This document shows, in pieces, positions 1 to 27,585 of a stretch of 64,000 bases of DNA (position 1 is the stretch's first letter; the number at the start of each line of letters is the position of its first letter). A model generated the notes under the pieces. That model was not told where the DNA came from and made no database searches. It saw only the letters and a program-made list of their open reading frames with translations. The DNA is taken from positions 2,300,001-2,364,000 of the forward strand of contig JAXDDX010000060.1 of the NCBI GenBank assembly GCA_034670405.1, given 5' to 3'. The translations under genes and the position numbers were made by a program. This DNA comes from Hoplostethus atlanticus. Lineage: Eukaryota > Chordata > Actinopteri > Trachichthyiformes > Trachichthyidae.

Positions 1-702
1 GTGAAATGTGTTGTGTTAAACGATAATGGTTTTGCAAGTATTGAAGGTAACCGGCGTGACAACACTGTTTTTAATGTACGGCGGCCACACTCCACGCATG
101 TTTGTACTGCAAGTTTACGATAGCTAGCTGGCTAGCTGAACCTGTTTTCTAGAGCAAAGTGAAACAGCAATCCCCTGCATGAAACTTTGTCGAAATTGTT
201 TCCAGTAATACTCACAATTCAGGTACGATTACGCTATTCTTTTTTATTATTTTGGCTAAATCTAGGAAAGATAACCAATGAATTGTATTGTTTGCGATAC
301 GATACTATTATCCTCACTTCCATGTATGTGGTGTTGGCGTTAGCTTCCCCTCAGCTAGATACATGTTATAAGCTAACCTGACGTTACATTAAATGCATAT
401 TTTTAAGACGTCACCTGGAAGCTAAATGCTAGTAAAGTAGCCTTACACGTCTCACAAGGGAGAACGCTTTTACCATTCAATGATGTCGCAATATGTTCCC
501 CTTTTTGCCCTTAGGGATTCCCCATATCAATGTGGTATGAATATGGTTATTTCCTGGCTTTAGCGCCAGTTTGACACTCCTCGTAATGGACTCCTGAAAT
601 CTCTGGATTGAGCAACTCATCAGGCAGGGCCAGAGACCTTGCGGGTTTTGGACCAGAGGTCGCCACTCAACCTACATCTGCCCTCACAAGCAGAGGGAGC
701 AC
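1..702 (+). promoter_or_regulatory. Upstream region and 5' UTR of the otulin gene
   Basis: No protein gene is visible here. The segment precedes the first otulin coding exon and should contain its promoter and 5' UTR. A pyrimidine-rich stretch ending in AG at 513-514 looks like a splice acceptor, and an AG/GTACGA donor-like junction lies near 222-223, so a noncoding 5' exon spliced to an exon starting at 515 is possible. An upstream ATG at 493 is in frame with the chosen start but meets a stop after 15 codons. No TATA box is obvious. The transcription start cannot be fixed from sequence alone. Confidence 0.4.
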
Positions 703-3700
703 ATGGGGAACTGCTGCTGTCCTGGTACCAGTCCCTGTGACAGTGTGGAAGAAAGAAGTGGCTTGTTGCACGATGCTTCTAAGGCCACAGCGCCCACAGC
801 CGAGGCAGGAACGGTGGGCGAATTCCAGCACAGTCCGGAAGCAGATGATGACGTGAGGTAAGACCAACATCTTGGTAGTGGTTCCCTTCAAGCCCTCCAG
901 AGGGGTTGGAGAAATACCCAGATGTCACTGATTTCACTCGCTAGAGGTTAGTGCAGTAAGAAATTGTTTACAGATGACTATTTTGATGATAGGTTTCCCT
1001 AACCACTTACAGTAGTAGTACAATTCTATACAAAATCATAACTAACTACAAAATCTGTGATCCAACACTATTGATTTGCGGGTCCTCGACGTGAAAAGCT
1101 TTAGGATGCGATCACACTTATAGTGTGTTTTCTTTGGTCCAAACTAGTTGAAAGGTTTATTTTGTTGCATTTTTATATTTGGTTCATTTAGGTTCACACT
1201 GCCCAATTACAAGTGAACCAGGGTAAATTAAAGTCACATGGACTCACTAGTAGTTAGTTTAAGAGATTTGGTAACCTGTCATCTCCTGCGAGATTGAAAA
1301 GGGGGGCAGGAGGAATCAAAAGAAATCCAGTTCCAGTCCCTGTAAATTAAGCTAAACATAATGTATTTGTCTGTGCTCTTTGCTGTAATTTACCATCTCT
1401 GGTCTTCATACAAGGTAAGAACACATGAATTAAATAGCTACATATGACCATCAGTCCAGACTGCAGTTTGCCCTCAGTTCAGTTTGTTACGCTCAGCTTT
1501 CCAAACACAGTAACCACTGGCTGTCAGATGTCAACATCCATAAAACCGCATGGAACAACGGTCGACCACTGAACAACATACTTGTAAAACCGTATGTTTT
1601 GGGGTCGCTTCCTGTAGGTGGTATGATTACGTTGGCACTCCTAACGAACCACACTGCAGTTCACACAGTGAGGTTATTTGTTGGGCACCCAAGTTGGAAT
1701 GGCATTGTTCTTATGTTGCCAAATGCCAAACTCCAGAGTTTGATTTAACCACTCCAAACACGCTGGTGTGAACATGCCCTAGAGTCCCTGGTCTAGACAT
1801 CAGAGATCCGAGTTGTGATGTAACCAAGGCCCTGATTGGCATGTGTGCTGTATTATATTGAATTGTATTTCTGTATTATGTAACATTGCTGATGCCCTCT
1901 GTCGTGTTACTTAGGAAAACAAGTGACAAGGCCAACATCAAGAAGGAGGAAAAGGTTGTGACTATACAGGTGAAGCAGAGTCCCCAGGCCAGAGAGACAG
2001 AGTCTAAGACTCAGAAGAATGGACCCCTTCAGAAGGAATTCACACGGACAAAGACACCTTCTCCCAGCAAAGGTGCTGCACTCAAAGAAAACTCAGCCAA
2101 CAAAGCACAAGACAAATATGTGACGGAAACTGCCATCGACGACAGACCCTGTGAACCGCCATGCACTTTAGAATCCCCACAGGACGAATGTGATGTAGCC
2201 GATGGGGAGGTATTTACAGAAACAAAGGTAGTGGAGGAACATCTAGCCGTAGTGCCGGACAAAATCCCTGAGGGCATCTCACAAGCAGCCGAGGCAGTCT
2301 GCCCGGAAGACACCCCCAGGGCAGAAATACTGACAGAGCACATTGCAACAGAAACCGTCCACGGTGATGATGGTGAAGAGCAAGACGATGTCTCCAAAAC
2401 GACCACTGACAATGCTGCGGTCAAACCCTCAGGGGAGTTCACTCACTGTAATGAAGTGTCATCTCTGCCAGACACTCAGCAGCCTGCAGAGGCTTGTCAG
2501 GCGTTGTCCATCTCTGTGTCCAGCCAGGAGATCAGCACAGAGTCATCCCTTACTGGAAATGCCCCTCAGTCACCCTCCCACTCATCTGCATCTCCTAGCC
2601 GGTAAGTCATATGGCAAGATTAGCAGCTTAATTTCAGTAGAATAAAAGAGTGCGCAACTATTCTCCGAGTACTCATTTTTTGAAATGGTCACAATGAACA
2701 GAGACAGGAACAGTATAGTTGTACCGGTATTGAAACGTGCACTCACAAGTCATCGGTGTGCTGCTGTATCTTTCTGCTATCTTCTTGTGTCCAGTGCTGT
2801 GACAAAGCAGAGCGAATCAGAGAATGGGAGCTGTTCCGTGTACAAGGAGACCGGCCTCGAGGACGTAAAAAGCCATGATGTTTCTGAGCCATCTCCTGGA
2901 ACGGACTCCACGGGACTCAATCACGATGATGTGGAGCATGACTCCGCCAGCACTGTCAGGGGGCCAGAGACCACAAGTCCCTCAGCAGCCAGCGAAAGGT
3001 CAGTGGGTTCAGATTTTATGAGGACCTTGTTTACCAAAGTTGTTGCTTATGTTTTTGCTAGCCTCAATGTGGCCACTAGGGGGCGTAAGGACAGCACAGC
3101 TAGTCAGTTGCAGTTACACAATCATTGTCAGACTCTCCCCTAAGGGTTTGAATGAAAGAACTCATGGTATGTAATGTTTGTGTCTTAACCGCACCGGTCC
3201 TCTGAGGGAAAATCAAGTCTAAAATGTTTTTCAACTGTACGTTGCAGTTCCTCTGCAAGCCCCATAACCTCTTTCAACTATTCTATTGTGACATGAAATA
3301 TCCATTTCATACTATAAGCATGATCCTCCAGAGGCGGATTGGGTGTCATAGCATTGTATTATTTGTCTGACAGTTGAATAATAGACTTTGAGTGTATATA
3401 AAGAGGGAAGACTAACGAGACACCATAACCAGCGAGTTCTTCTCATTCTGTTGTGCATAGATAGTAATGCAGAGCCCTCATACATGTACTCAAATCCAAT
3501 ACAAGCATGTTATTGGATGTATGTTCTCTCCAGCTCAAAGTCCTACAAGGATGCAAAGCCAGATCTCCAGTGTGCAGCCATCAGCTTGAAGGAGGTCGCT
3601 TCCTTGGAGAACCTTGTGCAGGATATTGGGGAGGAAACTGTGTTCAAAGCAAAAGAAGACGGAGATGTCCCCAAAGCCGAGGAGACGGTGGAGACGGAGA

Positions 3701-6700
3701 AGACGGAGAAGACGGCAGAGATGGAGAAGACGGAGAAGACGGAGAAGACGGAGAAGACGGAGGAGACGGAGGAGACAGAGGAGACGGAGGGTGCTTCCAC
3801 AGAGGCCGTGACTAAGGCTGAGGAAGACCTTACTGGAAAAGAGAAGCCGGTGGCGATCACATCCGCTGACGTGGAGGATGATGTGCTACCTGCCCTGGAG
3901 CAGGATGACTTTGCTGAAGAGGGCAGTGGGAATAGGTTTGTAAAGGTTACTTTTGGTCACTGCTTTGTCCTTACTCAGATAATCTTTTTGGCCATCATAA
4001 GAATGAACGAGTCAGTTGCAAATGAGAAGGTATGATGATGTAACTGAAATTTTAAAACGGTGTGCTCATAGGGTTCAGTGTGTTGTTTAGAGTTTCTCAT
4101 AATGTTCATTGATCAATTGGAGCTCAAGTCAACCCCATTTTTGTGTTTCCTCTTAGTGATGAAGACTTGTATAGAGGAGCTGAGGAGCTTTCACCAACAC
4201 AAGTTAAAACAGGACCAGTGCCTCTGTTAGAAATCACACGTCAGTATATCCAAAACATTGTGTGCACCATTATATTTTAACGTAGAACACAATACTACAT
4301 CTATACTGTCCATATAAAACACACAATAGTCATTTTTGTCATGACAATCGTATTCTCTTACTTTCCTGTGGCTTACTTAGTTCCCAAGGTGGAGGACAGA
4401 TGCAGTTTGGCCCCAGCAGTGGATATTCTGTCCTATAGTGAGAGAGAGTGGAAAGGAAACACTGCCAAAAGCGCTCTTATTAGAAAGGTCAGTGCATGTA
4501 GCTCTTGGAAGACTGTGTTTCAGATCATGGCCAGTTGTTGTTGTGTTTTTTATTATATCCAAGTGGTATCCCTGTGTGCTCTAGGGTTATAAAGAGATGT
4601 CCCAGAGGTTCGGCAGCCTGAGGAGAGTGAGAGGAGACAACTACTGTGCCCTCAGAGCCACTCTGTTCCAGGTGCTTTCTCACAGCACCCAGCTGCCAGC
4701 GTGGCTGCAGCAGGAGGACATCGCTATGGTAAATGCTTTCATAGTGAGGGGATATTACTTGCATGTGACACGTTTAGCCTAACTATGTTGTGCAACTCTG
4801 TGTACACTGAGAGTGAAATACTTGCCCCCCCCCAGAGGAATGGCGGCATTCTCAGCAGCAAGATAGTAAAGATAAATTTACCAACTCACATAACTAAGTG
4901 ATATATATTTAATACTGTGAATATCTCTGCTGTTGTGAAAATGGCTCATGCTTCAGTCTGACTTGTTTTAACGCTTTGTGGTTACAGTTGCCTAAGGAAC
5001 TGGAGGCCCGGGAAGGACTGATAAGTCAGTGGATGTTTCCTGGAGAATGCCAACAGGGAGACGGGGCGGGGGATGCCACCCAACAGCTAAAACATTACAT
5101 GGAGCTTCTCCGAACTAGGGTACTGGCTATAGATCTTCCAAGGACCATATATACCGTCTCAAAGTATTCTAAAGACTCTAAACCACTATAGTATATTTAG
5201 GGCCTCTGTGGACACTGGGGCGACTGACATTCACCCACAGCTTTTGGCTGTGATTGCTACCATATGTTGAAAGGTTGAAGTTTAAGTGCTGCACTGCACA
5301 CTCTCTCATGGCTTTCTGTGTGTCATTACAAAAGTGCAATAATACTCTCAGAGGTATGGATGGACCCTCAACATCAAGTAAACACTTTCAACAGTTCTGT
5401 AACATGAACTGCAGTACCACTTTACTATAACAACATGAGGCCCTGAGAAACGTTTATTGGCACTCATTGCCGCTGGTGGCTCGTTAGGACTTCTGGTGTT
5501 TATTGCACAGGGTTTGGTTTTTGAAAGTCATTCCTTTTATGCGTGGTAGCTGTGTTAGTTTTCTTAGCTTGACAGTCTTAAGTTTCACTTTGAATAGACT
5601 CTCCATGTCTGTTTTTCTGGTCATCACCAGTTCCACAGGCATTGGTATGTGTGTGTGTATATATAGAAGACATAATCATCATTGTGTCATTTTTGTTTAG
5701 TGGCAGGCTGCAGTGGGCTGCTCCAGTGCTGAGGAGCGCCAGCAGCTGTGTGAACACGTGTTCCAGGGAGGAGAGGAGGAGCTGGGGCTGCTGGAGGCTC
5801 TCAAGCTGCTGATGCTGGGCAGAGCCATGGAGCTGCACAGCTGCATGCAGGCGGGAGGAGACGTCCCCATCTTCTGCTGGCTCCTCTTCGCCCGGGACTC
5901 CTCCGAGAGTCCGCGCACCTTCCTTTCCAACCACCTAAGCCATGTGGGCTTCAGCGGGGGGCTGGAGCAGGTAAGATAAACCATGTGGCATCTGCCCTCC
6001 GTGAACACGCATGGTACCCAGTTCCCTTTTGTTTACTGTTCAACCACTCATTCATTTGAAAAGGTTTTATTAGCAACATACAATACTTTCCTGGCAGGCA
6101 GAGCAGATTTACATTCACCTTTATGGTAAACAACACTTACTAGTTATTGGCTGCTGTAGTATTCTGACCTATTCAGATCCAACAGTACATTTCCAGGGTA
6201 CCCAGTAACAGTACAACCCCACAAACAGTAATTCCTCTCACCTACAAACAGGAAACTACAACATAGGGACGTCATGTTAGCCTGAAAACATTTCCCTACA
6301 ACATTGGACTGTACAGAACTGAAAATTGAAACGTCATTGTTGTCATAATGAACGAAAACAAAAATTAAGGATGGATTTTTCTGAGCTTGGGTCTGTAGCT
6401 TTTTCATTATCTACAGCAACACATGCTGAAACTTGAACTCCTGTTCCTGTTCTCACTACCACTGCATCATCATTCTCAAGGGCAGGGAGATTCTGAGTGG
6501 CTTAATTGTTATTTTCACTCTTTAATTAGGGGGTTACTACTGCCATTGACACTGTTGTGGCACTGTTTCCATATCGACACTCACACCACCCATAAATATC
6601 ATTTACTTGTACGGCTGATTAAATATTGTGCTGGCAAGTGTGCATGTTTATCTTAGTTTCTGGCTGTGTGTTGTGGCTTCCTGCAGGTGGAGATGTTTCT

Positions 6701-6896
6701 TCTGGGATACGCCTTGCAGTGCACCATTCAAGTTTACAGACTGTACATGGCTGACACGGAGGAGTTTGTCACATATTACCCAGATGACCATAAAGAAGAC
6801 TGGCCGTCTGTGTGCCTCATTACAGAGGATGACCGCCATTACAACGTCCCACTTGTAGAGGCTGCAGAACTACCCAAGGAACTCACCTCTAGCTGA
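703..6896 (+). CDS. otulin: OTULIN-type linear (Met1) ubiquitin deubiquitinase, long N-terminally extended form, 10 coding exons
   Basis: Exons: 703-857, 1915-2601, 2795-2998, 3534-3935, 4157-4239, 4381-4487, 4585-4728, 4988-5119, 5701-5970 and 6687-6896. All have GT/AG borders and matching phases, giving 797 residues against 352 in human OTULIN. The family cleaves Met1-linked ubiquitin chains made by LUBAC. The PIM that binds the HOIP PUB domain is in exon 5 ([10 protein letters not shown], Tyr488). The OTU domain spans about 525-785: Tyr529 and Trp534 match human Tyr91 and Trp96, [13 protein letters not shown] carries catalytic Cys567, Glu754 matches human Glu314, and DRHYN carries His779 and Asn781. 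Intact catalytic residues argue for OTULIN and against the inactive paralogue OTULINL. Residues 1-480 are unlike human: MGNCCC start, then an acidic Thr/Glu/Pro-rich region with a Lys-Thr-Glu repeat. The C-terminus ends TSS, not ETSL. The ATG at 703 has a mediocre context (C at -3, G at +4). The OTU half is near certain; the first four exons are supported by unbroken phase but need transcripts. Confidence 0.87.
3691..3789 (+). repeat. 9-bp coding minisatellite in otulin exon 4 (Lys-Thr-Glu / Glu-Thr-Glu repeat)
   Basis: Tandem, slightly degenerate copies of GAGAAGACG, drifting to GAGGAGACG, lie inside exon 4. They encode a run of Glu-Lys-Thr and then Glu-Glu-Thr triplets at about residues 401-432. 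The period is a multiple of three, so copy-number change would keep the frame. The tract is highly charged and probably disordered. Confidence 0.9.

Positions 6897-8756: not shown

Positions 8757-17140
<8,384 letters not shown>

Positions 17141-25699: not shown

Positions 25700-27585
<1,886 letters not shown>

Follow-up and report, generated by a model that had tools for sequence, protein, structure and literature searches.

An ANKH-linked otulin gene of Hoplostethus atlanticus with a plausible membrane anchor in its first exon

The otulin gene, its surroundings and its second copy

The window, by which we mean the whole stretch of 64,000 nucleotides analysed here, corresponds to C60:2300001-2364000 of the 633-Mb Hoplostethus atlanticus genome. 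Between its positions 703 and 6896, on the plus strand, we rebuilt by hand and by script an otulin gene of ten exons, in which all junctions are GT-AG and the phases are consistent. Its predicted product has 797 residues and is followed by a stop codon at 6894-6896. The exons are:

703-857, plus strand: exon 1, coding, residues 1-52; candidate site of acylation with Gly2, Cys4-6 and Pro7; acidic dileucine at E17RSGLL22
1915-2601, plus strand: exon 2, residues 52-281; acidic low-complexity extension; phase 2-2 (symmetric)
2795-2998, plus strand: exon 3, residues 281-349; phase 2-2
3534-3935, plus strand: exon 4, residues 349-483; phase 2-2; 9-bp tandem array; first internal Met is residue 412
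4157-4239, plus strand: exon 5, residues 483-511; PIM-like LUBAC-binding motif (Tyr488)
4381-4487, plus strand: exon 6, in which the OTU (Peptidase_C101) domain begins
4585-4728, plus strand: exon 7, carrying the predicted catalytic Cys567
4988-5119, plus strand: exon 8, coding
5701-5970, plus strand: exon 9, coding
6687-6896, plus strand: exon 10, with His779 and Asn781 (DDRHYNVPL); C-terminus ELTSS-stop, without a class I PDZ-binding motif

The original prediction had assigned this gene to OTULIN, and the assignment is borne out by both profile and structure searches. The Pfam family PF16218 (Peptidase_C101) matches residues 518-783 with E = 1.5e-135 and 451 bits against a cut-off of 27, and human OTULIN structures came out on top in a search of the PDB (E about 1e-85). 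An identity as OTULINL (FAM105A) was dropped, given the weaker PDB match of FAM105A (6drm, E = 1.5e-61) and the presence of the active-site cysteine. Cys567, His779 and Asn781 lie at the places aligned with the catalytic Cys (Cys129 in human), His and Asn of OTULIN. The OTULIN family (C101) cleaves Met1-linked ubiquitin only, and the same specificity is predicted for the fish protein. The exon 5 motif DEDLYRG is PIM-like by inspection and keeps the Tyr and Arg that correspond to human Tyr56 and Arg57. These two residues of the human OTULIN PIM are reported to matter for HOIP binding (PMC13414579), and the fish motif may be read as a putative PIM that would bind the PUB domain of HOIP. Queried against PDB chains of 20 or more residues, the fish PIM peptide returned 0 matches. 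At the level of sequence, the window gene is OTULIN with its catalytic-type residues and a PIM-like motif intact.

Ahead of the OTULIN core, four extra 5' exons contribute an acidic stretch of low complexity, about 483 residues long, that starts with MGNCCCP. Residues 1-483 are composed of 22% Glu+Asp and 21% Ser+Thr and contain no Trp. The PIM tyrosine, which is Tyr56 in human OTULIN, is Tyr488 in the fish protein, placing about 430 more residues ahead of the PIM in the latter. Exons 2, 3 and 4 each span a multiple of three bases and are of phase 2-2, so that any combination of them could be skipped in frame. When exon 1 is joined computationally to exon 5 the frame stays open and gives a form of 366 residues, not far from the 352 in human OTULIN, in which the 52 exon 1 residues lead straight into the PIM exon. 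Within coding exon 4, a 9-bp tandem array of GAGAAGACG (3679-3789, 12.3 copies) encodes a Glu-Lys-Thr repeat, whose length is possibly variable between individuals.

Convergent with otulin, an ANKH gene lies at window positions 12439-16581 on the minus strand. A genome search detected ANKH at no other locus, its 8 matches all falling on C60; as OTULIN also neighbours ANKH in human, the window otulin is the copy in the conserved neighbourhood. Two frames on the minus strand, 8757-9110 and 9692-9892, look like the last ANKH exons, and no Pfam family was found in them. Beyond ANKH, at 25700-27585 on the plus strand, there is a MYC-family gene with Myc_N, HLH and Myc leucine zipper matches, whose second coding part includes a long run of Glu and Asp. 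An open frame without a Pfam match (L015 7930-8472, plus strand), situated some 2.2 kb ahead of exon 1, may be the final exon of a gene upstream.

Besides the window gene there is one other otulin in the genome, on C198; all ten scored matches (E <= 0.01) fall at the two loci, six at one and four at the other. Its catalytic exons are 42-69% identical to those of the window copy and its PIM is present. As the probable first coding exon of this copy we identified:

C198:606705-606796, minus strand: probable first coding exon of the C198 otulin, MTQQLEIPPDRIASSSESDTASDIVTAIAS, 690 bases before the PIM exon

This candidate starts with MTQQLEIPPDR and is short, without Gly2 or N-terminal cysteines. 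It has A at -3 and a phase 2 donor AG/GTAATG that scores 3.5; over the 56.9 kb that precede the C198 PIM exon, 16 candidates pass a score of 2.5. CpG observed/expected around the candidate exon is 0.82-0.84, the median being 0.29. After splicing, about 30 residues would come before the PIM exon, which is nearer the human layout. In the same 56.9 kb, a search for MG-Cys starts (Cys in residues 3-6, at least 15 open codons) gave six weak candidates and no convincing one. The MGNCCC head is thus probably specific to the window copy, having been either gained there or lost in the C198 copy; this specificity weighs little either way. A further candidate exon of phase 2-2, ending in SLATLREEPVLCQGEWISGFKSSPED, was seen at C198:608433-608606 (minus strand), 2.4 kb upstream of the C198 PIM exon. 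Relatives of exon 9 were sought among viral contigs (4 pattern matches) and genome contigs (72 pattern matches), with 0 confirmed.

Acylation and sorting motifs in the N-terminal head

The original prediction held that the start of exon 1 fits an N-myristoylation site. We noted that Gly2, Asn3 and Cys6 indeed fit, but that Pro7 goes against both motifs examined. The PROSITE pattern PS00008 reads G-{EDRKHPFYW}-x(2)-[STAGCN]-{P}, as given in PMC6741125; of its four restricted positions, G-N-C-C-C-P passes at three and breaks the final {P} with Pro7. This last element is missing from the pattern as printed in PMC9405953, and the absence of proline is described in PMC2829124 as the sole restriction on the sixth residue (Gly being the first). 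In the newer NMT motif, MG[^DEFRWY]X[^DEKR][ACGST][KR] (PMC9018777), positions 2-6 pass and Pro stands at position 7, where Lys or Arg is wanted. According to the same source this requirement is not absolute, in that peptides without a positive charge there may be accepted (PMC9018777). Under the terms searched, PMC9361279, PMC4550359 and PMC12858966 yielded nothing on proline at that motif position. The membrane reading of the head is reasonable as a hypothesis but is specifically weakened by Pro7, which also lowers our estimate for myristoylation of Gly2 itself, a modification that we regard as possible but somewhat doubtful.

Four cysteines of exon 1 lie close to Gly2, namely Cys4, Cys5, Cys6 and Cys12. 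S-acylation of Cys4 and Cys6 is plausible. In a Galpha-o heptapeptide whose Cys was moved to position 4 (MGNC), palmitate labelling was kept, and the peptide went from the Golgi to the plasma membrane and to endocytic membranes derived from it (PMC9018777). The change S6C likewise raised plasma-membrane localisation, while Cys5 alone made a poor substrate (PMC9018777). Gly2 with at least two Cys among residues 3-6 is rare, being seen in 0.02% of random proteins built with a generic composition. We consider S-acylation of the cysteine cluster, with or without myristoylation of Gly2, and the consequent presence of a fraction of OTULIN on membranes, to be slightly less than an even call; a membrane anchor on the fish OTULIN is to this extent plausible, though unproven. 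As the MGNC heptapeptide reaches the plasma membrane (PMC9018777), its behaviour counts against lysosomes as the first destination, and the endolysosomal location first proposed for the protein is not indicated.

The match to [DE]xxxL[LI] in EERSGLL, which had also been pointed out previously, is real, and E17RSGLL22 is the only such match in residues 1-483; its function as a sorting signal is predicted. When residues 7-51 were shuffled (n=20,000), the motif appeared anywhere in 1.0% of cases and near the N-terminus in 0.5%. In random proteins of the same generic composition, it falls within the first 26 residues in 3.2%.

The best-surviving alternative, to which we grant a substantial chance that is nonetheless somewhat below even, is that ATG703 is the real start and the N-terminus is simply not lipidated. 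MGNCCC would then be the TGC-rich, low-complexity beginning of a fast-evolving disordered tail, the protein would be cytosolic like human OTULIN, and the dileucine would go unused since the protein never meets a membrane. The break of PS00008 at Pro7 favours this, as do the acidic, Ser/Thr-rich and Trp-free composition of residues 1-483 and the probable first exon of the C198 paralog, which is devoid of such a head; as the latter copy apparently lacks it, nothing shows selection keeping the head. It is also favoured by the frequency of the underlying DNA string, which is about that of chance: the whole 633 Mb contain the MGNCCC pattern 3 times against a hand-estimated expectation of about 1, its reversed control gives 0, and the two other occurrences look, by eye, unlike gene starts. 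ATGGGNAAYTGY is present once in the window, where 0.22 are expected, and at least one occurrence was seen in 18 of 100 shuffles. Only the fact that a well-formed gene opens with it gives the string meaning. On the opposite side stand the rarity of Gly2 followed so closely by at least two cysteines and the occurrence of an N-terminal dileucine above the level of shuffles.

The position of the translation start

The earlier account of exon 1 was accurate in its codons and phases: 703-857 on the plus strand comprises 51 codons plus two bases and joins 1915 in phase, and the numbering given for Gly2, Cys4-6, Glu17, Leu21 and Leu22 is correct. A TGA lies in frame at 595, and between that stop and ATG703 the frame contains no other ATG. 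Since Met is absent between residues 1 and 412 of the product, the open exons 2-4 need either ATG703 or an ATG in intron 1. Two features bear on this choice:

1-500, plus strand: CpG-rich stretch by CpG observed/expected, probable promoter and 5' leader
1892-1914, plus strand: alternative in-frame ATG in intron 1, overlapping the exon 2 splice acceptor; C at -3 and C at +4

CpG observed/expected is 1.06 in the 500-bp segment that starts at -249 and 0.93 in the one that starts at 1, against a median of 0.39 and a 90th percentile of 0.60 for the window as a whole. A non-coding leader exon is possible: there is a donor at 223, and a strong acceptor has its end at 514, so that the leader might be spliced from 223 to 515. 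ATG703 has C at -3 and G at +4, and so has no purine at -3. Short upstream ATGs are present, four of which (530, 537, 543 and 586) would remain even if the leader were spliced at 514. The exon 1 donor AG/GTAAGA at 857/858 ranks in the top 0.33% of GT dinucleotides in the window by a simple position matrix.

The frame of exon 1 does not stand out by its codon usage. Its in-frame score of 0.275 bits per codon is below those of the other two plus-strand frames (0.317 and 0.442) and was reached by 6.5% of 5,000 open random segments; 703-857 is also open in a second plus-strand frame and in minus-strand frames. This lack of discrimination, together with the upstream ATGs, leaves some room for the view that exon 1 is not, or not the only, start of otulin, translation beginning elsewhere, for example at ATG1892, which is in frame with exon 2 and reads into it, or the 703 exon being an alternative one. 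We judge this to be quite unlikely: ATG1892 is embedded in the pyrimidine-rich acceptor of exon 2 and has C at both -3 and +4, the CpG peak lies upstream of exon 1 with none in intron 1, and the donor of exon 1 is both strong and in the right phase. The placement of exon 1 as the first coding exon of otulin is thus supported, as far as sequence can speak to it, and we consider it likely that ATG703 is the translation start.

A search of the genome with exon 1 matched only its own locus, and none of the Pfam families matched it up to E = 10. That exon 1 is a piece of an upstream gene was dropped as a candidate, because it has its own ATG after an in-frame stop and the CpG peak lies in between.

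Possible action at membranes and likeness to known systems

A LAMTOR1-like endolysosomal anchor, as originally proposed, has in its favour the MG start with cysteines and an acidic dileucine, LAMTOR1 being myristoylated at Gly2 and lysosomal (PMC10940682), but we regard it as very improbable in view of Pro7, of a similarity to this genome's LAMTOR1 first exon that is not above shuffles, of the plasma-membrane destination of the MGNC heptapeptide (PMC9018777) and of the early and recycling endosomal localisation of the MGNC-bearing RNF11 (PMC7697665).

The explanation that we find best overall, and that we advance with slightly less than even confidence, is that of a real, ANKH-linked fish otulin in which the head encoded by exon 1 is a plausible membrane anchor. 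Translation would start at ATG703, and the N-terminal cysteines would be S-acylated with or without myristoylation of Gly2. If the protein is so anchored, it might follow the pattern of RNF11, reaching the plasma membrane and being sorted through its dileucine by AP-2 or GGA to early or recycling endosomes, an itinerary that by analogy is conceivable but on the unlikely side; a LAMTOR1-like residence on lysosomes would be improbable even then. The anchored enzyme would trim LUBAC-made linear ubiquitin near receptors, and the second copy, with its short start free of Gly2 and cysteines, would constitute a soluble form. In the 366-residue enzyme that skipping of exons 2-4 would yield, the PIM exon would follow the anchor without anything in between. 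In a more speculative extension, which we think fairly unlikely, this fish would divide OTULIN between a soluble copy with a short start and an acylated, ANKH-linked one. The RNF11-style head of the latter, with its endocytic dileucine, would tether LUBAC-bound OTULIN to the plasma membrane and to early or recycling endosomes, taking the place of the C-terminal SNX27 link of tetrapods, and skipping of the symmetric exons 2-4 would tune how far the enzyme sits from its anchor.

OTULIN, which trims linear ubiquitin chains, keeps inflammatory signalling by linear ubiquitin in check. If the head is used as proposed, a tagged OTULIN beside an untagged paralog would make the action of OTULIN at membranes testable with one-residue mutants; if it is not, this is an ordinary fast-evolving disordered N-terminus. 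In zebrafish, a reduction of otulina in eggs lowered both fertility and several Wnt transcripts (PMC6631549), so that a phenotype to rescue exists; no mention of the N-terminus of zebrafish otulina, which was mutated in that egg-quality study, was found in the accessible parts of it. In the titles and abstract openings of the open-licence otulin papers listed, no lipidated or N-terminally extended OTULIN is described.

In comparison with its relatives, the fish gene keeps the catalytic domain, the catalytic-type residues and the PIM-like motif of OTULIN, along with ANKH, the neighbour of the human gene. It differs in its MG-Cys start, in the long stretch ahead of the PIM and at the C-terminus. 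The human protein ends in the PDZ-binding ETSL, which binds SNX27 and provides an endosomal link, and whose conservation is described for mammals and tetrapods (PMC6754446), whereas the window copy ends in ELTSS and the C198 copy in NVPVE, both without a class I PDZ-binding or SNX27-binding tail. A membrane link at the end of the protein opposite to that of the SNX27 motif would be an interesting swap. OTULINL (FAM105A) is a membrane-associated paralogue with a related OTU fold; it differs in being inactive according to the PDB, and its known anchor is an N-terminal hydrophobic membrane segment rather than a lipid.

LAMTOR1 (p18) shares with the fish head an MG start with cysteines, and human LAMTOR1 has an acidic dileucine downstream of its start. 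It is, however, a lysosomal scaffold and no enzyme, and its first exon in this genome, which begins with MGCCYSSENETTEQV and is present in two copies, is not alignable with exon 1: over only 15-odd residues, an equally good alignment is reached by 63% of MG-fixed shuffles, so that the resemblance to LAMTOR1 originally proposed is weak, and weaker than that to RNF11. The two LAMTOR1-type first exons, C3:15826351 and C3:15830238 (L030 and L031), are 3.9 kb apart and differ at one residue over 70 translated codons; either they arose by tandem duplication in recent times or the assembly has created the second copy.

RNF11 is the better analogue, by design rather than by descent. It shares with the fish head the MGNC start, Cys4 and an acidic dileucine located no further in than residue 22; with OTULIN it shares the role of restraining NF-kB through ubiquitin. 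It differs in being an E3 ligase and in having Lys at position 6 and Ser at position 7. Two RNF11-type first exons, beginning with MGNCLKSPTSDDISLLHESQSD, are found in this genome. The alignment score of exon 1 with the fish RNF11 exon was reached by 3.2% of full shuffles and by 31% of 2,000 MGNC-fixed shuffles; as the alignment beyond MGNC is at the level of chance, descent from RNF11 exon 1 was dropped. RNF11 is myristoylated at Gly2 and palmitoylated at Cys4, and its DxxxLL at residues 11-16 binds AP-2 (PMC7697665); its effect on NF-kB needs the myristoylation site (PMC3416671). We count this precedent in favour of a membrane anchor on the fish OTULIN, for RNF11 is a ubiquitin regulator of NF-kB in which MGNC combined with DxxxLL serves for endosomal targeting.
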